Assembly (NCBI RefSeq): GCF_020181595.1
Contig: NZ_CP084028.1
Coordinates: 127,220-160,828, forward strand
DNA: 33,609 nt
Source: [Mycobacterium] vasticus
Lineage (GTDB): Bacteria; Actinomycetota; Actinomycetes; Mycobacteriales; Mycobacteriaceae
Direction of reading: 5' to 3'
In this document: positions 21,135 through 31,963 of the stretch, piece after piece
Numbering within the stretch: position 1 is the first letter of the stretch
Layout of the letters: every line of letters begins with the position of its first letter
The notes under the pieces: model-generated
Seen by the model: the letters and a program-made list of their open reading frames with translations, nothing else
Databases searched by the model: none
Told to the model about the DNA's origin: nothing
Position numbers and translations under genes: made by a program

Positions 21135-21150
21135 GTTACTCATCGGTAAG
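21135..21150. promoter_or_regulatory. TTAC-N6-GTAA operator at the tetR promoter
   Basis: GTTAC-TCATCG-GTAAG overlaps the -10 box TAAGAT (21147-21152) of the TetR gene at 21185. It shares spacing and arms with the elements at 26142-26157 and 31309-31324, so the TetR product probably binds all three, including its own promoter. Confidence 0.65.
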
Positions 21151-21184
21151 ATTGCTTCGGAGCGCGCGGAAGGACGTCGAGGCC

Positions 21185-21811
21185 ATGGCAGCTGGCAGCA
21201 AGCGGTTACCGCGCGCCGTGCGCGAACAGCAGATGCTCGACGCCGCCGTGCAGATGTTCTCGATGAACGGCTACCACGAGACCTCGATGGACTCGATCGC
21301 CGCGGCCGCGCAGATCTCCAAGCCGATGCTGTACCTCTACTACGGCTCCAAGGAGGAGCTGTTCGGGGCGTGCCTGGACCGGGAGCTGCGCCGCTTCGTC
21401 GAGGCGGTGCGCACCGACATCGACTTCCAGCAGTCCCCGAAAGACCTGCTGCGCAACACGATCCGGTCCTTCCTGCACTACATCGACGCCAACCGGGCGT
21501 CGTGGATCGTGATGTACACCCAGGCCACCAGCTCGCAGGCGTTCGCCCACACCGTGCGCGAGGGCCGCGAGCGCATCATCGAGCTGGTCGGCCGGCTGCT
21601 GCGTGCCGGCACCCGAAACCCCGAGCCCGGCGTCGACTTCGACATGATGGCCGTCGCGCTGGTGGGCGCCGGCGAGGCGATCGCCAGCCGGGTCAGCACC
21701 GGTGACACCGACGTCAATGAGGCGGGCCAGCTGATGATCGACCTGTTCTGGCGGGGCCTCAAGGGCGCCCCGGGCGGGCGCGACGGCGTGGAGGGCGCCG
21801 CTACGGGATAG
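21185..21811 (+). CDS. TetR-family regulator (Rv0238-like)
   Basis: This 208-residue TetR regulator has the helix-turn-helix at residues 10-60: AVREQQMLDAAVQMFSMNGY, then SIAAAAQISKPMLYLYYGSKEEL. ATG 21185 was chosen over the upstream TTG 21152 because that TTG overlaps the -10 box and the protein then has the Rv0238 length (204). AAGGACG lies upstream. The TTAC-N6-GTAA palindrome over its promoter recurs in front of fabG4/fadA2 and fadE5, which points to a role as repressor of this fatty-acid cluster. An acyl-CoA-responsive TetR repressor of fatty-acid degradation called FdmR is known from M. marinum; I cannot tell whether this is its ortholog. Confidence 0.88.
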   Translation: MAAGSKRLPRAVREQQMLDAAVQMFSMNGYHETSMDSIAAAAQISKPMLYLYYGSKEELFGACLDRELRRFVEAVRTDIDFQQSPKDLLRNTIRSFLHYIDANRASWIVMYTQATSSQAFAHTVREGRERIIELVGRLLRAGTRNPEPGVDFDMMAVALVGAGEAIASRVSTGDTDVNEAGQLMIDLFWRGLKGAPGGRDGVEGAATG

Positions 21812-21839
21812 TCCGTTCGGCTGGCAGAGCCCGGCCGGA

Positions 21840-22703
21840 TCAGGCCTCTCCATCGTTGAGATGCACCGCGTGGACGCCCGGTTCGGTCGCCAGCTGGTCC
21901 AAAAGGTCTTCCAGGTTCGCCTTGTCGGTGTGCCAGTGGCGCGCCGATTCCGGTTCGTCGGAGACCTTGGCCAGCGCCTGTTGCAGCCTGTCCGGCGCCT
22001 TGGAGCTGCGAGTGGCCCGGGGGACGCCGGCCATCCCCGCGAGGGCCGCATGGCCGATCAATGGCTGCGCCGGTGCTGCCGCACCGCTGGTAGCCGCAGC
22101 AGGGGCAGGCCTGGACTCCGGGACGGCGGCGCCCCAGTTCGACGCCGGCCGCAAGCCGGCCGGCCTGGCACCCGTGCCGGCTGCGGAGGTGGAGGCGAGC
22201 GCACTCGAACCGGCGACAACCGATGCCGGTGCCGGGCTCGGCGCCGCCGCGGCTTCGGCCGACTTCAGTACGCCGTCCAACTGCTGTGCCCGCATGGCCA
22301 GGCCGGAGATCACGCTGACGACGGGGGCGGCCTGCCCGGGGCCGAAGGCGAAGCTGCCGACGGACTGCGCCGCGCCGATGATCGTCGTGACGGCAGAAGG
22401 ATCGACTGCGGACGCAGCGACGTTGGTGGCCTCGGCCGAGGCGTAGGAGTCAGCGTTGCCCCGCAGCGTGTCGATGAACAGCTGTTGCAGGGCGCCGGCG
22501 CGGGCGCTGATCGCCTGATACTGCTGCGCTTGCGCGGCGAAGCTGGCGGCGGTCATCACCGAGACTTCGTCGGCGGCCGGGGGCGGTGCCCCGAGTGTCG
22601 AGACCGCGACGGCCGAGTTCTCCTCGCGCATAGCCGCGTCGAGGCCGGCCCATTGCGCGGCGGCCGTCGTCAGTAGGTCGGGTTGGGTGGTGACGAAGGA
22701 CAT
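21840..22703 (-). CDS. PE family protein with a distinct C-terminal domain
   Basis: This 287-residue PE protein has the PE domain at residues 1-98: start MSFVTTQPDLL, the central AADEVS...TAASFAAQAQQYQ helices and the type VII secretion signal YASAE (Tyr87-x3-Glu91). After an Ala/Pro linker (about 100-215), residues 220-287 form a charged segment (DEPESARHWHTDKANLEDLLDQL in outline) unlike PGRS or PE-PPE lipase tails; I do not recognise it. It follows the PPE gene with a 9-nt gap, and GAGGAG lies in that gap, so the two are co-transcribed in the order PPE then PE. It is likely secreted as a heterodimer with its partner, probably by ESX-5 (inference). Confidence 0.9.
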   Translation of the reverse strand: MSFVTTQPDLLTTAAAQWAGLDAAMREENSAVAVSTLGAPPPAADEVSVMTAASFAAQAQQYQAISARAGALQQLFIDTLRGNADSYASAEATNVAASAVDPSAVTTIIGAAQSVGSFAFGPGQAAPVVSVISGLAMRAQQLDGVLKSAEAAAAPSPAPASVVAGSSALASTSAAGTGARPAGLRPASNWGAAVPESRPAPAAATSGAAAPAQPLIGHAALAGMAGVPRATRSSKAPDRLQQALAKVSDEPESARHWHTDKANLEDLLDQLATEPGVHAVHLNDGEA

Positions 22704-22712
22704 GTCCGCTCC

Positions 22713-23771
22713 TCAGGCTTCTCGCCGGCTGGGCCAGTCGGCTGATCGGATGACGAAGATGGTGGCGTCGGATGATGTGCGGGTCTGCTTGCCGCGGCGG
22801 GATCCGGTCGCACCGGCGAAGGCCAGATCGCGCGCCAGACCACCCCCGCCGACAACCGGGCTGGTCAAGCCCATCGGGGTGGTCGGGGTAGCGGTGGCAG
22901 GGCTCGCCGCTGCGGGGGCGAACTTCATCGCGGGGGCGGTGGAGCTCCAGGTCGGCGGGACCGACAGTCGTCCAACCAGGCCTGCGCGGCCGATGCCGGC
23001 AGCGGTGGGGGCCGCCGGCCGAGTCTCGATGCCGGCCGTCGCAGGCGGCAGGGCCGCAACCTTCTCGGTCAGATCGGCGACGTTGGCCGAGACCGACGGC
23101 AGCGCGTAGAACTCGGTGCCGAACAGGTAGCCGCCCAGCGCCGGGCTCAGCAACGACAGCGGCGAGAACGGGCCGGTCAGTCCGCTCAGCAGCGACAGCC
23201 CGGACGACGCGTCGGGCGCCGGGTCGGATGCGGCCGCCGAGGCGGCCGAGGTGGCCTGCGGTGGGTCGCTGAACGGCACCAGCTGAGCGGCGGCCGTCGC
23301 GGCTGCGTCGTAGCCGAGCATCGCGGCGGCGTCCTGCGCCCACATCTCCATGTACTGGGCTTCCAGGGCGGCGATTGCCGGCGCGTTCTGCCCCAGGAAG
23401 TTGGTGGCGATCAGCGATGTCTGCAGACTGCGGTTGGCCGCGATCGCCGGTGGGGGCACCGTAGCGGTGAACGCCGCCTCGTAGGCTGCCGCGGCGGCTC
23501 GCTGCTGCGCGGCGGTTTGTTCGGCTTCGGCGACGCTGACGTGCAGCCAGCTGATGGTTCGTTGGGCGGCCGCCGTCATGGACGCCGCCGATGGGCCGGT
23601 CCAGCCTGCGGCCAATGCCGCGACCACCGCCGCGCCCGACGTCGCCGTGGCGGCCAGTTGGGCGGCCAGGCCCTCCCAGGCGCTCGCGGCCGCCAGCATC
23701 GGTCCGGCGCCTGGCCCGGCGTACATCCGCGCGGAATTGATCTCCGGCGGCAACAGCGCGAAGTCCGGCAT
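22713..23771 (-). CDS. PPE family protein, PPE-SVP subgroup
   Basis: This 352-residue PPE protein has the PPE domain at residues 1-180: start [13 protein letters not shown], the WTG motif at 57-59 between the helices that pair with PE, and [31 protein letters not shown]. The C-terminal region carries LSVPPTW (269-275), the mark of the PPE-SVP subgroup, and ends with a basic stretch. ATG 23771 was chosen because GGGGAGGG lies a few bases upstream and the family always begins close to this PDF/ALPPE motif. Its promoter is covered by two MarR-type operators. No esx genes are nearby, so secretion must use a type VII system elsewhere. Confidence 0.93.
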
Positions 23772-23787
23772 CTCCACCCTCCCCAAC

Positions 23788-23805
23788 TAATTGACGAATC
23801 AACTA
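23788..23805. promoter_or_regulatory. MarR-type operator, downstream copy at the PPE promoter
   Basis: TAATTG-N6-CAACTA, one mismatch in 12 arm positions, lies between the predicted transcription start (about 23806) and the PPE ribosome site. Its centre is 38 bp from that of the upstream copy at 23826-23843. Confidence 0.65.
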
Positions 23806-23812
23806 CTCATCG

Positions 23813-23840
23813 AGCATAACGTAGGTAGTTGCTTTGTCAA
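23813..23840 (-). promoter_or_regulatory. Promoter of the PPE-PE operon
   Basis: On the minus strand a perfect TTGACA (23840-23835), a 16-bp spacer and TATGCT (23818-23813) predict a start near 23806. The -35 box lies inside the upstream operator, so a bound repressor would block polymerase. Confidence 0.65.
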
Positions 23841-23843
23841 CTA
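23826..23843. promoter_or_regulatory. MarR-type operator, perfect copy at the PPE promoter
   Basis: TAGTTG-CTTTGT-CAACTA has perfect 6-bp arms. The 20-bp stretch starting at 23825 matches the one at 8841 in the marR/monooxygenase intergenic region at about 16 positions, including the shared GTAGTT and TTGTCAAC blocks. Confidence 0.72.
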
Positions 23844-23875
23844 ATCTGGGATGACCGCGGGCCGGCCGGCGTCGG

Positions 23876-24718
23876 CTACAGTGCCCGCACCGACCCGGTC
23901 AGGTACGGGTAGCCCCTGGCGACGTTGCGCAGCGCCAGATCCCAGCCCCCGGCGGCCTCCTCGACGTAGAGCCCCGGGCTGGCCGGCAGCAGCATCGGCT
24001 TGCCGAACCGCACCGAGTACTCCACCGCGTCCGGCAGCGACCCCTCGATGTTCGCCAGCACCGCTGCCGCGGAGAACATCCCGTGCGCGATCACCGTCGG
24101 GAAGCCGAACAGTTTGGCGCCGATCGAACTGGTGTGGATCGGGTTGTGGTCGCCGCCGGCCGACGCGTAGCGCCGGATCTGGCCGGGGGTCACCCGCAGT
24201 ACCGCATTCGGCGGGCCCAGCCTGGCCTGCTTGGCCGGTGGCGGCTTGGGCTCATCGGCCAGGCTGGTGCGCTGCTGGTGCAGGAACGTCGTCACCTGAT
24301 GCCACGCGGTGTCATTGCCGACGCTGATGTCGGTGACGATGTCGACCAGCAGGCCCTTGCGGTGCTCGCGCAGGTTCTCCGCGTGCGTCGCGATGCCGAC
24401 GGTGTCGGTGACCGCGATCGGCCGGTACTGGGTGATCCGGTTTTCGGTGTGCACCGAACCCATTGCGGCAAAAGGAAAATCGAACCCGGTAACCAGTGAC
24501 ATCACCGTTGGGAACGTGAGCGCGAACGGGTAGGTCAGCGGCACGTGATCGCCGAACCGCAGCCCGGTGACGTCGGCATACTCGGCGACGTGGCCGGGGT
24601 CGATCGCCAGCTCCTCGACCCGCAGCGTGCGGTTCGGCAGAGTTCCGGCGCGCGGCACGAAGGGCAGCGCCCCGGCGACCGCTCGCAGCATGTTTCGCAG
24701 TCCACTGGGTTGCGCCAT
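23876..24718 (-). CDS. htdX: 3-hydroxyacyl-thioester dehydratase HtdX
   Basis: This 280-residue double-hotdog MaoC-type dehydratase has exactly the length of Rv0241c. The C-terminal hotdog holds the hydratase-2 motif YASAGGDHNPIH (184-195) with Asp190 and His195, followed by the AHGM turn at 211-214. The N-terminal hotdog (about 30-150) lacks the motif and is structural. It dehydrates (R)-3-hydroxyacyl thioesters, in either fatty-acid elongation or breakdown. ATG 24718 lies 2 nt past the fabG4 stop; an ATG at 24724 overlapping that stop would add two residues. It is co-transcribed with fabG4, the next enzyme of the same chain chemistry. Confidence 0.93.
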   Translation of the reverse strand: MAQPSGLRNMLRAVAGALPFVPRAGTLPNRTLRVEELAIDPGHVAEYADVTGLRFGDHVPLTYPFALTFPTVMSLVTGFDFPFAAMGSVHTENRITQYRPIAVTDTVGIATHAENLREHRKGLLVDIVTDISVGNDTAWHQVTTFLHQQRTSLADEPKPPPAKQARLGPPNAVLRVTPGQIRRYASAGGDHNPIHTSSIGAKLFGFPTVIAHGMFSAAAVLANIEGSLPDAVEYSVRFGKPMLLPASPGLYVEEAAGGWDLALRNVARGYPYLTGSVRAL

Positions 24719-24720
24719 GA

Positions 24721-26085
24721 TCATGCCCCCAACATGGCTTGGCCGCAGACCCGAATGGTGTTGCCGGTCACCGCGTTCGAGGCCGGGCTGGCGAAGTAGC
24801 CGATCAGCTCCGCGACGTCCACGGGCTGGCCGCCCTGGAACAGCGAGTTGAGCCGGCGGCCGACCTCGCGGGTGGCCAGCGGGATGGCCGCGGTCATGTC
24901 GGTCTCGATGAATCCGGGGGCCACGGCGTTGATCGTGATGCCCTTGCCCGCCAGCACCGGAGCCAGGGCGTCGGTCAGTCCGATCATGCCGGCCTTGGTG
25001 GCGGCGTAGTTGGTCTGGCCGCGGTTGCCGGCGATACCGGCCATCGACGACAGGCCGATCACCCGGCCGCCCTTTCCGATGCTGCCATTGGCCACCAGGC
25101 CCTCGGTGAGCCGTTGCGGCGCAAGCAGGTTCACCGCCAGGACCGAGTTCCATCGGGCGTCATCCATGTTGGCCAGCAGCTTGTCGCGGGTGATGCCGGC
25201 ATTGTTGACCAGGACGTCAGCCTTGCCGCCATGGTGCTCTTTGAGGTGGGCGGTGATCGCCTCGACCGCGTCGTCGGCAGTCACATCGAGGGCCAGCGCG
25301 GTGCCGCCCACCCGTGCGGCGGTCTTCTCCAGGGCTTCGGCGGCCTGCGGCACGTCGATCGCCACCACCTTGGCGCCGTCACGGGCGAACACCTCGGCGA
25401 TGGTGGCGCCGATCCCGCGCGCGGCACCGGTGATGATCGCGACCTTGCCATCCAGCGGACGGTCCCAGTCGGCGGGGGCGTCGGAGTCGTCAGCGCCGAC
25501 GTAGAACACCTGGCCGTCGACGTAGGCCGAACGGGCCGACAGGATGAACCGCAGGGTCGACTCCAGGCCGGTGGCGCCGGGCTTGGCCTCCGGCGACAGG
25601 TACACCAGCTGCACGGTGGCGCCGCGCTGCACTTCCTTGCCCAGCGACCGGGTGAAGCCCTCCAGCGCGCGCTGGGCGATCCGCTCGTCGACGCTGCCGG
25701 TCAGATCCGGGGTGGTGCCGACGACCACCAGTCGCCCGCAGGCCGCCACGTTGCGCAGCAGCGGGGTGAAGAACTCATGCAGTGCGGTCAGGCCGGCCGG
25801 CGAGGTGATGCCGGTGGCGTCGAAGACCAGCCCGCCGAACCGGTCGGCCCAGCGGCCGCCCAGGTTGTCGCCGACCACCTGGTAGTCCTCGGCCAGGGCG
25901 GTGCGCAGCGGTTCGGCCACCCGGCCGTTGCCGCCGATCAACAGGGGTCCGGCCAGGGCCGGCTCGCCGGCTCGGTAGCGGCGCAGCGTTTCGGCCTGGG
26001 GTACGCCGAGCTGCTTGGCCAGGAACGAGCCTGGGGCGGAGTTGACGATCTGGGACAACAGGTCCGACGGGACTTTGGGGGCCAC
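24721..26085 (-). CDS. fabG4: 3-oxoacyl-ACP/CoA reductase FabG4 (high molecular weight FabG)
   Basis: This 454-residue reductase equals Rv0242c in length. Residues 1-205 form the flavodoxin-like N-terminal domain peculiar to this subfamily. Residues 210-454 are a complete SDR domain with GAARGIG (220-226), NNAG (294-297) and the catalytic Ser347, Tyr360 and Lys364, the numbers I recall for the M. tuberculosis enzyme. It reduces 3-oxoacyl thioesters using NADH. The start is GTG 26085, with GGAAGG upstream. It leads the fabG4-htdX operon and is divergent from fadA2 across a perfect 16-bp palindrome. Confidence 0.95.
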
Positions 26086-26141
26086 TTAACTGCCTTCCAT
26101 CTGGGTGCGCGCCTGGTCTAGGCCGCGGTGTCGACAACGAA

Positions 26142-26157
26142 CTTACTCCAGAGTAAG
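26142..26157. promoter_or_regulatory. Perfect palindrome in the fabG4/fadA2 divergent promoter
   Basis: CTTACTC-CA-GAGTAAG is a 16-bp perfect palindrome that also fits the TTAC-N6-GTAA pattern seen at 21135 and 31309. On the minus strand the -10 candidate TATTCT (26161-26156) overlaps it; on the plus strand TAGTAT (26167-26172) lies just downstream. A repressor here could silence both directions at once. Confidence 0.75.
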
Positions 26158-26225
26158 AATACTGGGTAGTATCACCTCGACCGCCCCCGGCAATGCGGGG
26201 CGCCTCATCATCAGACGGAGAGATC

Positions 26226-27566
26226 GTGGCATCTGGACCTGCTGCTAAGCCCACATCCGCCGGCGAGCGCCGCCGCGTCGCCGTCCTCGGCGGCAACCGC
26301 ATTCCGTTCGCCCGGTCCGACGGCGCCTACGCCAGCGCGTCGAACCAGGACATGTTCACCGCCGCCCTCGGCGGTCTGGTCGACCGGTTCGGCCTGGCCG
26401 GCGAGCAGCTGGACGCCGTGATCGGCGGGGCGGTGCTCAAGCACAGCCGCGACTTCAACCTGATCCGCGAGTGCGTGCTCGGCTCGGCACTGTCGCCCTA
26501 TACCCAGGCCTTCGACCTCCAGCAGGCCTGCGGCACCGGACTGCAGGCGGCGATCTGCGCCGCAGACGGTATCGCCGCGGGTCGCTACGAAGTGGCCGCC
26601 GCCGGTGGTGTGGACACCACCTCCGACGCGCCCCTGGCGATCGGCAACGAGCTGCGCCGCACGCTGCTGGCGCTGCGGCGGGCCAAGTCCAACGTGGCGC
26701 GCCTGAAGCTGGTCGGCAAGCTGCCGGCCGCCCTGGGCGTGGAGATCCCGGCCAACAAAGAGACGCGGACCGGGCTGTCCATGGGCGAGCACCAGGCCAT
26801 CACCACCAAGCAGATGGGCATCAAGCGCGTCGACCAGGACGAGCTGGCCGCGGCCAGCCACCAGAAGATGGCCGCCGCCTATGACCGCGGCTTCTTCGAC
26901 GACCTGATCACTCCGTTCCAGGGGCTCTACCGCGACGACAATCTGCGGCCCGGTTCCAGCCCGGAGAAGCTGGCCACCCTGCGGCCGGTGTTCGGCGCGA
27001 AGGCGGGCGACGCCACCATGACCGCGGGCAACTCGACCCCGCTCACCGACGGCGCGTCGGTGGCGCTGCTGGCCAGCGAGGAGTGGGCGGCCGCGCGCAA
27101 GCTGACCCCGCTGGCTTACTTCGTGGACTCCGAGACCTCGGCGGTCGACTACGTCAACGGTCCCGACGGGCTGCTGATGGCGCCGACGTACGCGGTGCCG
27201 CGGCTGCTGGCCCGCAACGGGTTGACGTTGCAGGACTTCGATTTCTACGAGATCCACGAGGCGTTCGCGGCCACGGTGCTGTGCCACCTGGCGGCCTGGG
27301 AGTCGCAGGACTACTGCAAGTCCCGGCTGGGGCTGGAATCCGCGCTGGGCGCCATCGACCGGTCCAAGCTCAACGTCAACGGCTCGTCGCTGGCCTCGGG
27401 GCACCCGTTCGCGGCCACCGGGGGCCGGATCGTGGCGCAGGCCGCCAAGCAGATCGCCGAGAAGAAGGCCGGGCTCAAGGGGGCTGCGAAGAACAAGCCG
27501 GTGCGCGCGCTGATCTCGATCTGCGCCGCCGGCGGCCAGGGCGTCGCCGCGATCCTGGAGGGGTAG
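26226..27566 (+). CDS. fadA2: Acetyl-CoA acyltransferase (thiolase) FadA2
   Basis: This 446-residue thiolase matches Rv0243 (440). The nucleophile Cys102 is in QQACGTG, His344 in YEIHEAFA, His393 in GSSLASGHPFAATGGR and the second active-site Cys433 in SICAAGGQG, so the catalytic set is complete. It cleaves 3-ketoacyl-CoA with CoA, or runs in reverse to condense acetyl-CoA. GTG 26226 has GGAG 5 nt upstream; a longer frame back to 26193 has no such site. It is divergent from fabG4 and shares its operator. Confidence 0.95.
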   Translation: MASGPAAKPTSAGERRRVAVLGGNRIPFARSDGAYASASNQDMFTAALGGLVDRFGLAGEQLDAVIGGAVLKHSRDFNLIRECVLGSALSPYTQAFDLQQACGTGLQAAICAADGIAAGRYEVAAAGGVDTTSDAPLAIGNELRRTLLALRRAKSNVARLKLVGKLPAALGVEIPANKETRTGLSMGEHQAITTKQMGIKRVDQDELAAASHQKMAAAYDRGFFDDLITPFQGLYRDDNLRPGSSPEKLATLRPVFGAKAGDATMTAGNSTPLTDGASVALLASEEWAAARKLTPLAYFVDSETSAVDYVNGPDGLLMAPTYAVPRLLARNGLTLQDFDFYEIHEAFAATVLCHLAAWESQDYCKSRLGLESALGAIDRSKLNVNGSSLASGHPFAATGGRIVAQAAKQIAEKKAGLKGAAKNKPVRALISICAAGGQGVAAILEG

Positions 27567-27594
27567 CCGTGACCCGCCGCTGGAGCGAGGGGTT

Positions 27595-28305
27595 TCAGCG
27601 GCGGGTACGGGCCACGGCGATGGCCCGGTCCCACAACAGCAGCGCAGCCGGCTTGAGCGCAGCGTGTCGGACCTGGTCGCGGGCCAGCAGCGCGGTGGCC
27701 GACGCCTTGGTCTTCGCCGACGCCTTGGACAGGTGGCCGGAGTCGAATGGCGGCTGCGGGTCGTATTCCACGGCCAGCTGGATGGCCTTGGCGCGGTCGT
27801 CGCCGCCGATCCGGCCCGCCAGCCACAGTCCGAGGTCGATACCGGCGGAGACTCCCGCGCAGGTGACCACGTCACCCTCGTGGACGATGCGTTCGTCGCC
27901 GACCGCTTTGGCGCCGAACGCTTTTAAGGCCGGCAACGCCAGCCAGTGCCCGGTGGCCCGCTTGCCGGTCAGCAGCCCGGCCGCCGCCAGGACGAGCGAG
28001 CCGGAACACACCGACGTCGTCCAGGTCGCCGTCTCGTGCGCCCGCCGGACCCAGCCCAGCAGCTTCTCGTCGCGGGCGTGCTCGACGGTCGTCGGACCGC
28101 CGGGCACCAGAATCACGTCGGGGGAAGGTGTTTCGTCGAAGGAATGGGTCGCACCGACAATCAGCACACCGGAGTCTGCGGTGATCGGACCCGGCTCGTG
28201 CCAGACGAAACGGACTTGCGTGTCGGGCAGCCAGCGCAGTGTTTCGTACGGGCCGATGAAGTCCAGCGCGGTGAAGCCGGGGTAGAGCACGATCGCGATC
28301 TGCAT
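27595..28305 (-). CDS. DJ-1/PfpI family protein
   Basis: This 236-residue protein has the DJ-1/PfpI fold. It begins MQIAIVLYPGFTALDFIGPYE and has the elbow cysteine Cys100 in SVCSGS followed by LAAAGLLTGKRATGHW. The pattern is closest to the isonitrile-hydratase-like and ThiJ/PfpI enzymes that travel with GlxA regulators. The true substrate cannot be read from sequence. ATG 28305 has AAAGGACG upstream. It starts 11 nt after the stop of the GlxA-type regulator, so they form an operon. A C-terminal basic region (about 195-236) extends beyond the DJ-1 core. Confidence 0.88.
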   Translation of the reverse strand: MQIAIVLYPGFTALDFIGPYETLRWLPDTQVRFVWHEPGPITADSGVLIVGATHSFDETPSPDVILVPGGPTTVEHARDEKLLGWVRRAHETATWTTSVCSGSLVLAAAGLLTGKRATGHWLALPALKAFGAKAVGDERIVHEGDVVTCAGVSAGIDLGLWLAGRIGGDDRAKAIQLAVEYDPQPPFDSGHLSKASAKTKASATALLARDQVRHAALKPAALLLWDRAIAVARTRR

Positions 28306-28316
28306 GATGCGTCCTT

Positions 28317-29285
28317 TCAGGCGAAGGTCTTGCGGTAGTGATCCGGTGAAATGCCGAGTCGACGGATGAAGGTGCGGCGCAGGGTCTCTGCGGTACCGAA
28401 GCCGCAGCGGCCGGCGATGGCCACGACGGTGTCGTCGGTCTCTTCGAGCTGGCGGCGCGCGGCCTCGGTGCGTACCCGCTCGACGTAGGCGCCGGGCGCC
28501 AGGCCGACCTCGTCGGTGAAGACCCGTGTGAAGTGCCGGGGGCTCATCGCGGCCTGGGCGGCAAGATCGGGAATGCGGTGCGCCCCACCGGGTTGGCTCT
28601 CGATCAGCTCCTGCACGGCACGGATCGGCCGGCGACGGGCCCGGGGCAGCCAGACCGGGGCGGCGAACTGGCTCTGCCCGCCCGGCCGGCGCAGGTAGAG
28701 CACCAGCCAGCGGGCCACGTTCTGTGCCACCTCGATGCCGTGGTCGTCCTCGACCAGGGCCAGCGCCAGGTCGATTCCGGAGGTGACGCCCGCCGCGGTC
28801 CACACCGACTGCGAACTGCGCAGGAAGATCGGCTCCGGATCGACTGTGATCGAGGGGAATTCGCGTGCCAACTGGTCGGCGAAGGCCCAGTGGGTGGTGG
28901 CGCGGCACCCGTCGAGCAGTCCCGCCGATGCCGCCAGGAAGGCGCCGGTGCACACGCTGATCACCCGCCTGCTGTGCGCCGCGGCGGTCCGGATCCAGGC
29001 CAGCAGCTCCGGATCGGAGCGGGCCGTGTGGACGCCGGTCCCGCCGGGCAGCAGCACGGCGTCGAAGCCATCGGTGGGGTCGGGCAGTGCGGTGGTCGCC
29101 AGGGCAGGACCGCTGCTGGTGGTGATGGGCGCGCCGTCGGTGCTGGCCAAGGTGATGTCGTAGCCGTCGTCGCCGCGGCCGGCGCCCAGCAGCGTCAGCG
29201 TCGCCCCGGCGAATACCTCGGAGGGCCCGAACACGTCCAGCGACTGGATGTCCGGGTAGCCCAGGATGACGATCTTGCGTCTCAC
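28317..29285 (-). CDS. GlxA-type AraC regulator with DJ-1-like sensor domain
   Basis: This 322-residue fusion has a DJ-1/PfpI domain at residues 1-195, with Cys112 in SVCTGAF at the nucleophile elbow position, and an AraC-type double helix-turn-helix at about 222-320 (MSPRHFTRVF, then CGFGTAETLRRTFIRRLGISPDHYR). Such GlxA regulators usually activate neighbouring genes in response to small amines or related metabolites. It lies directly upstream of a free-standing DJ-1 enzyme, whose fold it shares. The start is GTG 29285 with no strong ribosome site. The pair sits between fadA2 and fadE5, which are neighbours in H37Rv, so it is accessory here. Confidence 0.9.
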   Translation of the reverse strand: MRRKIVILGYPDIQSLDVFGPSEVFAGATLTLLGAGRGDDGYDITLASTDGAPITTSSGPALATTALPDPTDGFDAVLLPGGTGVHTARSDPELLAWIRTAAAHSRRVISVCTGAFLAASAGLLDGCRATTHWAFADQLAREFPSITVDPEPIFLRSSQSVWTAAGVTSGIDLALALVEDDHGIEVAQNVARWLVLYLRRPGGQSQFAAPVWLPRARRRPIRAVQELIESQPGGAHRIPDLAAQAAMSPRHFTRVFTDEVGLAPGAYVERVRTEAARRQLEETDDTVVAIAGRCGFGTAETLRRTFIRRLGISPDHYRKTFA

Positions 29286-29375
29286 CTGATCAGTGTCTGC
29301 TGCGCGGCACGATGGCGTCTACGCCACGCATCCCACAAATCAGGACAGCGCCGGATCTGGTGCGAAAATGCAGCA

Positions 29376-29402
29376 GGCCCCCGGGGGATCTCCCCGAGGG
29401 CC
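29376..29402 (-). terminator. Rho-independent type hairpin after fadE5
   Basis: GGCCCCCGGGG (29376-29386) pairs with CCCCGAGGGCC (29392-29402) at 10 of 11 positions around a 5-base loop, 22 bases past the fadE5 stop. A short T run follows on the minus strand after 7 bases. The strong GC stem suits a mycobacterial terminator. Confidence 0.75.
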
Positions 29403-29424
29403 TACGCGGTCTTGGTGCGGCGGT

Positions 29425-31260
29425 CTAGAACGCCGCCTCGTCGAGCTCCATGATCTCGTTGTCGATGCCTTCCAGCACCGAGCGGGTGCTGGTCAGCAGC
29501 GGCAGGAAGTTCTTGGTGAAGAACGACGCCACCGCGATCTTGCCCTCGTAGAAGGACCGGTCGGCGCCTTCTGCACCGGCGTCGAGCTTCTCCACGGCGA
29601 CGGCCGCCTGGCGGGCCAGCAGCCAGCCGATGACCAGGTCGCCGACGCTCATCAGGAAGCGCACCGAACCCAGGCCCACCTTGTAGATGCTGGAGATGTC
29701 CTCCTGAGCGGCCATCAGGTAGCCGGTCAGCGTCGCGGCCATGCCCTGCACGTCGGCCAGCGCGGTGGCCAGCAGCTCACGCTCGGCCTTGAGCCGGCCG
29801 TTACCGGTCTCGTTGGAGATGAAGGACTCGATCTCGCCGGCGACGTGGGCCAGCGCCTGACCCTTGTCCCGGATGATCTTGCGGAAGAAGAAGTCCTGCG
29901 CCTGAATCGCGGTGGTGCCCTCGTAGAGCGAGTCGATCTTGGCGTCGCGGATGTACTGCTCGATCGGGTAGTCCTGCAGGAAGCCCGAACCGCCCAGGGT
30001 CTGCAGGCTCTCGGTGAGCTTGGCGTAGGCCTGCTCGGAGCCGACACCCTTGACGATCGGCAGCATCAGGTCGTTGATCCGGACCGCCAGGTCGGCGTCC
30101 ACGCCGTGCAGCGCCTCGGCGACCACCGCGTCCTGGTAGCTGGCGGTGTAGATGTACAGCGCCCGCAGACCCTCGGCGTAGGCCTTCTGAGTCATCAGCG
30201 ACCGGCGGACGTCCGGGTGGTGGGTGATGGTCACCCGCGGCGCGGCCTTGTCGGTCATCTGGGTCAGGTCGGCGCCCTGCACGCGCTCCTTGGCGTACTC
30301 CAGGGCGTTGAGGTAACCGGTGGACAGGGTGGCGATGGCCTTGGTGCCCACCATCATCCGGGCCTGCTCGATCACGTCGAACATCTGCGCGATGCCGTTG
30401 TGCACCTCGCCCACCAGCCAGCCCTTGGCCGGCACACCGTGCTGGCCGAAGGTGAGCTCACAGGTGGCCGAGACCTTCAGGCCCATCTTGTGCTCGACGT
30501 TGGTGACGAAGGCGCCGTTGCGCTCACCGAGTTCACCGGTTTCGAAGTCGAACAGGAATTTCGGCACGAAGAACAGCGACAGGCCCTTGGTGCCCGGCTT
30601 GGCGCCCTCGGGGCGGGCCAGCACCAGGTGGAAGATGTTCTCGAAAAGGTCGTCGGAGTCCGCCGAGGTGATGAATCGCTTCACACCGTCGATGTGCCAG
30701 GAGCCGTCCTCCTGCTGGACTGCCTTGGTGCGGCCGGCGCCCACGTCCGAGCCGGCGTCCGGCTCGGTGAGCACCATGGTCGAGCCCCAGCCGCGCTCGG
30801 CGGCGATGATGGCCCACTTCTTCTGCTCTTCGGTGGCGACGTGGTAGAAGATGTTGGCGAATCCGGCGCCGCCGGCGTACATCCACACCGCCGGGTTGGC
30901 GCCCAGGATGTGCTCGTGCAGCGCCCACATCAGCGCCTTGGGCATGGCCACCCCACCGAGTTCCTCGGCGATGCCGACCCGCTCCCAGCCGCCTTCGAGG
31001 GTGGCGCGCACCGACTTCTTGAACGACTCGGGCAGGGTCACCGAGTGGGTGGCCGGGTCGAAGACCGGCGGGTTGCGGTCGCCGTCGACGAACGAGTCAG
31101 CAATCGGGCCCTCGGCCAGGCGGACCATCTCGCCGAGCATCTCGCGGGCGGTGTCGACGTCGAGGTCGGCGTACTCGCCCTGACCGAAGACCTTGTCCAG
31201 GCCGAACACCTCGAACAGGTTGAATACCTGGTCACGGACATTGCTCTTGTAGTGGCTCAC
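29425..31260 (-). CDS. fadE5: Acyl-CoA dehydrogenase FadE5
   Basis: This 611-residue acyl-CoA dehydrogenase has exactly the length of Rv0244c. The FAD/substrate motif [11 protein letters not shown] lies at about 165-175, and the catalytic base Glu447 is in [10 protein letters not shown], the number I recall for M. tuberculosis FadE5. A C-terminal extension of about 150 residues is typical of this long subfamily. It introduces the 2,3 double bond in a wide range of acyl-CoAs. GTG 31260 has AGGAGG 6 nt upstream; a frame running back to 31383 would cross the operator and promoter. A TTAC-N6-GTAA element lies in the leader. Confidence 0.96.
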
Positions 31261-31308
31261 TACTTCCTCCTCATGGAATGCCACCTGCGGTTGGGTACTC
31301 AGGCTTAA

Positions 31309-31324
31309 GTTACCCACCAGTAAC
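31309..31324. promoter_or_regulatory. TTAC-N6-GTAA operator in the fadE5 leader
   Basis: GTTAC-CCACCA-GTAAC has perfect 5-bp arms and the same 6-bp spacer as the elements at 21135 and 26142. It begins a few bases past the predicted fadE5 transcription start (about 31327), a classic repressor position. Confidence 0.72.
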
Positions 31325-31333
31325 GTGCCCTGA

Positions 31334-31361
31334 AATATACTCCGTGGAACCGGCAGCGCAA
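31334..31361 (-). promoter_or_regulatory. Promoter of fadE5
   Basis: On the minus strand TTGCGC (31361-31356), a 16-bp spacer and TATATT (31339-31334) give a predicted start near 31327 and a leader of about 67 nt. Confidence 0.6.
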
Positions 31362-31393: not shown

Positions 31394-31407
31394 ACCAACC
31401 GGTTGGT
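31394..31407. promoter_or_regulatory. Perfect 14-bp palindrome between fadE5 and the flavin reductase
   Basis: ACCAACC-GGTTGGT is fully self-complementary and of a type often bound by TetR regulators in actinobacteria. It lies upstream of both divergent promoters and differs from the TTAC-N6-GTAA element, so a second regulator may act here. Confidence 0.6.

Positions 31408-31453: not shown

Positions 31454-31963
<510 letters not shown>

Follow-up and report, generated by a model that had tools for sequence, protein, structure and literature searches.

Palindromes in a fatty-acid gene cluster of [Mycobacterium] vasticus as probable operators of an FdmR-type TetR repressor

The stretch of DNA described here, a window of 33,609 bases from the 4.55 Mb genome of [Mycobacterium] vasticus, carries three copies of the palindrome TTACN6GTAA, and these are very probably switches for fatty-acid burning genes that are read by an FdmR-type repressor. 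The explanation in which we place good confidence is that the palindromes are the operators of FdmR (Rv0238 type), a TetR-family repressor that senses acyl-CoA. The sites, their conservation and their targets were observed in this analysis; repression, release by acyl-CoA and the action on fadE5 come from the literature on other species. FdmR would be expected to bind these exact words, and the sites of the second spelling described below (class B), apart from that of fadE5, would presumably be FdmR's as well. The core of this account is published biology, found here in a Mycolicibacter. Some literature searches on operators brought up nothing useful. As far as the literature was searched, what is new is the footprint, its occurrence in this species, the longer list of targets and the split of the sites into two classes. 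An earlier note on this DNA, made from the sequence alone, was right both about the operator set and about the type of regulator. It had placed three TTACN6GTAA elements in the window; all were found, and there is no other:

Operator 1, GTTACTCATCGGTAAG, 21135..21150, no strand assigned: before the tetR (fdmR-type) gene; a hybrid of classes A and B.
Operator 2, CTTACTCCAGAGTAAG, 26142..26157, no strand assigned: class A, common to the divergent fabG4 and fadA2.
Operator 3, GTTACCCACCAGTAAC, 31309..31324, no strand assigned: class B, upstream of fadE5.

The centre of operator 1 lies 42.5 bp before the ATG of tetR, and that of operator 2 lies 76.5 bp before the GTG of fadA2 and 64.5 bp before the GTG of fabG4. 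Operator 3 is centred 56.5 bp before the GTG of fadE5 (start 31260, minus strand) and is thus upstream of the start codon. The flanking context that operators 1 and 2 had been said to have in common, CTCnnnnGTAAG, is real.

The motif is in excess over chance. Against the three copies in the window, 100 dinucleotide shuffles gave a mean of 0.01 and a maximum of 1. The whole genome has 14 copies of TTACN6GTAA and 6 of the reversed pattern; when the spacer is varied from N2 to N12, the matches number 6, 2, 3, 3, 14, 2, 3, 4, 5, 0 and 2, so that N6, with 14 of the 44 matches, stands out from the other spacers with 0–6 each. Against this, the reversed pattern is the commoner one in the own genome when all these spacers are added up (79 vs 44). 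The extended pattern STTACYNNNNRGTAAS occurs 11 times in the own genome and its control not at all, and the corresponding counts across 24 genomes of its genus are 212 and 21 (summed from a per-genome table). The pattern proposed in the earlier note, STTACYCNNNRGTAAS, searched on both strands, recovers 10 of these 11 sites in the own genome, but across the genus it covers only 28/38 of the sites at etfD, 14/29 at etfB and 5/24 at desA3, genes that are introduced below. Three sites of the own genome with A/T flanks, and one inside an OB-fold gene, are probably chance occurrences.

The same excess is found in orthologous loci, of which we examined 80 (the best 80 of 580 among the matches listed), 1.54 Mb in total. 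These contain 145 copies of TTACN6GTAA, a single copy of the reversed control and 0–5 matches for each of the other spacers. Since the 145 copies are the sum of 28 at tetR, 72 at fabG4/fadA2 and 45 at fadE5, there is no copy outside the three promoters. The fetched loci include 72 fabG4, 71 fadA2 and 45 fadE5 gene starts; the palindrome of operator 2 is kept at 72/72 and 71/71 of the former two, and that of operator 3 at 45/45 of the last. The palindrome as a conserved operator-like element is supported, and the genome scan and the orthologous loci together bear out the supposition that it is in excess and conserved at these promoters. The earlier note had also supposed that the TetR regulates its own gene. 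The site that this would require is kept in the Mycolicibacter clade (18 loci whose TetR is at least 91% identical; 17 are titled Mycolicibacter and one Mycobacterium sp.), where all 18 loci have the strict site before tetR, but outside the clade the site is absent from 52 of 62 loci. With 28/80 strict sites overall, divided as 18/18 and 10/62, autoregulation of the FdmR type would seem firm in the clade and looser elsewhere.

The genes around the operators are those of an FdmR/Rv0238-type locus (htdX, fabG4, fadA2 and fadE5 beside the regulator), and the view that the palindromes adjoin fatty-acid genes was confirmed:

21185..21811, plus strand: TetR-family regulator of the FdmR/Rv0238 type, 208 amino acids (Pfam TetR_N and TetR_C_46).
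23876..24724, minus strand: htdX-like dehydratase of the MaoC/HadA-HadB type (NCBIfam HadA/HadB matches below cut-off).
24721..26085, minus strand: fabG4-like 3-oxoacyl reductase (NCBIfam NF006110, 678 bits; cut-off 410).
26226..27566, plus strand: fadA2-like acetyl-CoA acyltransferase (NCBIfam NF006740, 736 bits; cut-off 539).
29425..31260, minus strand: fadE5-like acyl-CoA dehydrogenase (acyl-CoA dehydrogenase models, below curated cut-offs).

We take the last gene to be fadE5, as the earlier note did, and the Rv numbers of the neighbour genes at an Rv0238-type locus are likewise assumed. The window TetR is 96% identical to the TetR of Mycolicibacter sp. MYC123 and 78–96% identical to those of the 80 loci; its closest solved relative is 3f1b (238 bits). 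At E<=1e-40 it has a single match in each of 19 of the 121 genomes of the order, 10 of them in the genus, where the homologues are 75–100% identical; this limit left out the FdmR homologues of two distant genomes.

FdmR of Mycobacterium marinum was reportedly described by Dong et al. in 2021 (PNAS), a work known here through papers that cite it. One such paper equates FdmR with Rv0238 and presents it as a repressor responsive to long-chain acyl-CoA (PMC12403877), and another gives FdmR as the key regulator of fadE5 (PMC9262360). FdmR of M. marinum, or Rv0238, is also cited in PMC10701892, and PMC4482099 counts Rv0238 among the genes conserved in all the mycobacteria analysed there. Because FdmR is Rv0238 and acts on fadE5 according to the first two papers, the question of whether the window TetR is the FdmR orthologue can be answered with a probable yes, on published naming and gene order. 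The two agree in being TetR regulators at a like locus, in their fatty-acid catabolism targets, fadE5 included, and, according to the literature, in the long-chain acyl-CoA ligand. They differ in species, and the strict site at the regulator's own promoter differs among species. The likeness to the FadR (YsiA) type of Bacillus, TetR repressors of beta-oxidation genes that are relieved by acyl-CoA, is one of working principle; the window TetR scores 60.8 bits against that family's model (NF053878), below its cut-off of 200, and is not a member.

Fatty acids feed mycobacteria, and FdmR has been described as a valve between burning and using them. In the mechanism we propose, FdmR would sit as a dimer on the inverted repeats close to the promoters and so repress fdmR itself, the divergent fabG4-htdX and fadA2 genes, and fadE5. 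The repressor would come off in the presence of long-chain acyl-CoA, which would limit expression of the degradation genes to times of ample acyl-CoA.

The regulon had been thought to be local. It is not, as the own genome has eight further extended sites, seven of them at promoters:

Before a mce-type MlaE permease gene, one site.
Before an etfD-type gene (4Fe-4S domains), a tandem pair of sites.
Before etfB, one site.
Before a fadE24-like acyl-CoA dehydrogenase gene, one site.
Before a desA3-type fatty-acid desaturase gene with its reductase, one site.
Before a DUF4442 gene, one site.
Inside an OB-fold gene, one site.

The names etfD, fadE24, desA3, mce and hisN are our assumptions, made with the help of gene order and domain matches; the acyl-CoA dehydrogenase is called fadE24-like because it adjoins a hisN-like gene. 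Among the genus genomes the site stands upstream of etfB in 29/30, of fadE24 in 25/29, of etfD in 19/28 and of desA3 in 24/30, the last in the extended form in just 9/30. These loci comprise 30 of 31 matches for etfB, 30 of 32 for fadE24 (one of them, lacking upstream DNA, was left out) and 30 of 101 for desA3, the remainder being mostly lower-scoring paralogues; etfD had no match in 3 of 31 genomes. The arrangement at etfD is all or none, with the tandem pair in 19/28 genus genomes and no TTACN6GTAA at all in the other 9; each of the 19 positives carries two palindromes, with a centre-to-centre distance of 25 bp in 18 of them and of 24 bp in one. The same operator family would thus extend genome-wide to etfD and etfB, which belong to the electron-transfer chain of beta-oxidation, and to the fadE24-like, desA3-like and mce permease genes. 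With etfD and etfB on the operator map, a single switch would serve both the degradation enzymes and the electron outlet of beta-oxidation, which these two genes represent. A literature search for FdmR together with etfD gave one paper, which in the part available discusses EtfD and has FdmR in the title of a reference only. According to the accessible text of PMC8593149, etfD levels depend on IdeR; the word FdmR is absent from that text.

It could be asked whether the motif is a product of chance or a promoter feature such as a -10 box and not an operator at all, since its right arm reads TANNNT at many targets (fabG4 72/72, fadE5 44/44, fadE24 25/25, desA3 24/24, etfB 26/29, etfD 25/38, tetR 19/28 and fadA2 1/71). 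We consider this very improbable. The shuffles, the reversed pattern and the spacer controls oppose it, and so do the extension of the palindrome on both arms at tetR, etfD, fadE24 and etfB and the persistence of fixed arms around variable spacers at etfB and etfD, with 24 and 31 distinct 16-mers, respectively. We do not claim that the right arm is simply a -10 box, as the left arm, taken as a control, also gives TANNNT at several targets (fadA2 71/71, fadE24 25/25, etfD 37/38, etfB 27/29, tetR 19/28, fadE5 12/44, desA3 5/24 and fabG4 1/72). That operator 1 lies over the -10 box of tetR, as had been suggested, is plausible; at several targets, though, TANNNT arises on both arms from the outermost letters of the operator itself. 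A separate observation concerns positions 31325-31345, where GTATATTTCAG is read on the fadE5 strand just upstream of operator 3; it is also present in six relatives. If the TATATT within it is a -10 box, operator 3 would cover the transcription start of fadE5.

The operators come in two spellings. Class A, CTTAC...GTAAG, belongs to fabG4/fadA2 and fadE24 and reads mostly ATCTTAC-TCnnGA-GTAAGAT; class B, GTTAC...GTAAC, belongs to fadE5, etfD and etfB and reads mostly AAGTTAC-YnnnnR-GTAACTT. The flanks are C...G at 70/72 fabG4 and 25/25 fadE24 sites, and G...C at 43/44 fadE5, 38/38 etfD and 29/29 etfB sites. The left flank of the 24 desA3 sites is mixed (9 G, 3 A, 12 T), and the tetR site is a hybrid in Mycolicibacter, with G on both sides in 18/28 tetR sites. 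Allowing one mismatch in the own genome gives 19 class B places against 3 for the control; the class A search, with 8 against 6, is hardly above its control, and its two extra matches were dropped. The same change, GCTAC/GTAGC, accounts for 9 of the 14 inexact class B sites, and eight of these nine are at most about 240 bp upstream of an open reading frame (ORF). The ORFs of the variant sites encode isocitrate lyase, PntA, a KorA-like subunit, a protein of the SDR type, MutA, an ABC ATPase, an acyl-CoA dehydrogenase and SdhC.

This split bears on the supposition that one TetR gates all three palindromes of the window. From the literature it is likely; with a class A site, a class B site and a hybrid among the three, the sequence by itself does not establish a single regulator, and the two spellings might point to a second reader. 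A tentative alternative is that FdmR reads class A (CTTAC-TCnnGA-GTAAG, at fabG4/fadA2, fadE24 and its own gene) and that class B (GTTAC-N6-GTAAC, at fadE5, etfD, etfB and desA3) is left to a further dimeric regulator, which would probably be an acyl-CoA-sensing TetR as well. The flanks separate by target and the inner letters differ as well, the GCTAC-variant targets are wider than the role described for FdmR, and a distant genome with another TetR gene beside its fadA2 cluster has a class B site at fadA2. Yet fadE5, a class B target, is placed under FdmR by the literature; hybrids exist, the tetR site among them, and desA3 has the G/C flanks in only 9/24; TTACY-N4-RGTAA is common to both classes; and the class B sites examined mark no single consistent second TetR gene. 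In a broader and rather doubtful form of the idea, two operator codes would be interleaved throughout the order, each with an acyl-CoA-sensing repressor. FdmR with class A would serve chain shortening (fabG4/fadA2, fadE24), and a second dimer with class B would tie beta-oxidation in with electron transfer and with central metabolism (at fadE5, the etfD tandem pair at its fixed 25 bp, etfB, desA3, and the variant sites of the isocitrate lyase, korA-like, mutA, pntA and sdhC genes); the fdmR promoter, half A and half B in Mycolicibacter, would be their meeting point. The class split makes it easy to test whether the switch is set by one acyl-CoA sensor or by two. The nitrogen regulator GlnR, with its box GTnAC-N6-GAAAC, was also considered as a candidate for class B.

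It is worth setting out what weighs against FdmR as the reader of all these sites. Two classes with few hybrids would be compatible with two regulators as well. The strict tetR site is missing from 52 of the 80 loci; a half-site, CTTAYBCT, is still present within 130 bp at 32 of these promoters and absent at 20. Finally, the spacers at fabG4/fadA2 and at fadE5 are almost invariant across loci, which exceeds the need of a symmetric operator and means that another constraint is present.

A named candidate for the reader of class B is FasR (Rv3208 type), a paralogous acyl-CoA-sensing TetR, and we think it improbable. FasR is the second-best solved relative of the window TetR (61 bits), and its family model NF053731 is the best NCBIfam match of that protein, at 89 bits against a cut-off of 330; the window TetR is thus not placed in the FasR family. 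The own genome has a separate FasR-family gene (382.5 bits), and a FasR gene above the cut-off is present in 31/31 genus genomes searched. According to the accessible part of PMC7382501, the oligonucleotide in the FasR crystal holds TAC-N6-GTA and TAC-N6-GTT cores but no TTACN6GTAA, and FasR differs further in being an activator, of fas-acpS. One distant FasR gene has GTTACTGGCGAGTAAG upstream, and GCTACGGGCGAGTAAC stands upstream in 4/27 genus FasR loci. Against this, no strict site was found in the searched upstream stretch of those 27 loci (27 of 30 could be placed, the own genome being among the three left out), and inspection by eye recognised no fas gene next to any of the 19 class B places in the own genome, exact matches and one-mismatch ones together. 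The published oligonucleotide and the absence of strict sites upstream of FasR in those 27 loci also speak against FasR as the reader of all the sites, though four of the loci carry the related GCTACGGGCGAGTAAC.

The motif is not confined to the genus. Other families of the order were represented by 16 genomes, of which 13 have at least one extended site; in nine of these 13 all 47 extended sites were surveyed. Distant sites precede fadE5, fadA2, thiolase, crotonyl-CoA reductase, 3-hydroxyacyl-CoA dehydrogenase, etfB and etfD-type genes (several recognised by eye); several of the 47 lie before unrelated genes or within an ORF, and not at lipid genes. Two of the nine genomes, from two distant families, keep the row FdmR, htdX, fabG4, class A site, fadA2, and both have TTACN6GTAA before FdmR too (one of these loci was fetched for its motif). 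Among the nine non-genus loci that were fetched by protein at E<=1e-40, four have TTACN6GTAA just upstream, with flanks C...G or C...T, and five do not.

Some features of the window lie outside this scheme. The distance from tetR to fabG4 varies widely among orthologous loci. Between the TetR gene and htdX there are two ORFs: that at 21840-22703 has a weak N-terminal match to a LipY model and looks PE-like by eye, and that at 22713-23786 looks PPE-like by eye and had no match in NCBIfam. The interval 27595-29285, between fadA2 and fadE5, holds DJ-1/PfpI-like and FtrA-like AraC-type genes, both below curated cut-offs. A perfect 14-bp palindrome of another kind, ACCAACCGGTTGGT, lies at 31394-31407, between fadE5 and a flavin-reductase-like gene (31478-31963), and is possibly the operator of another regulator.

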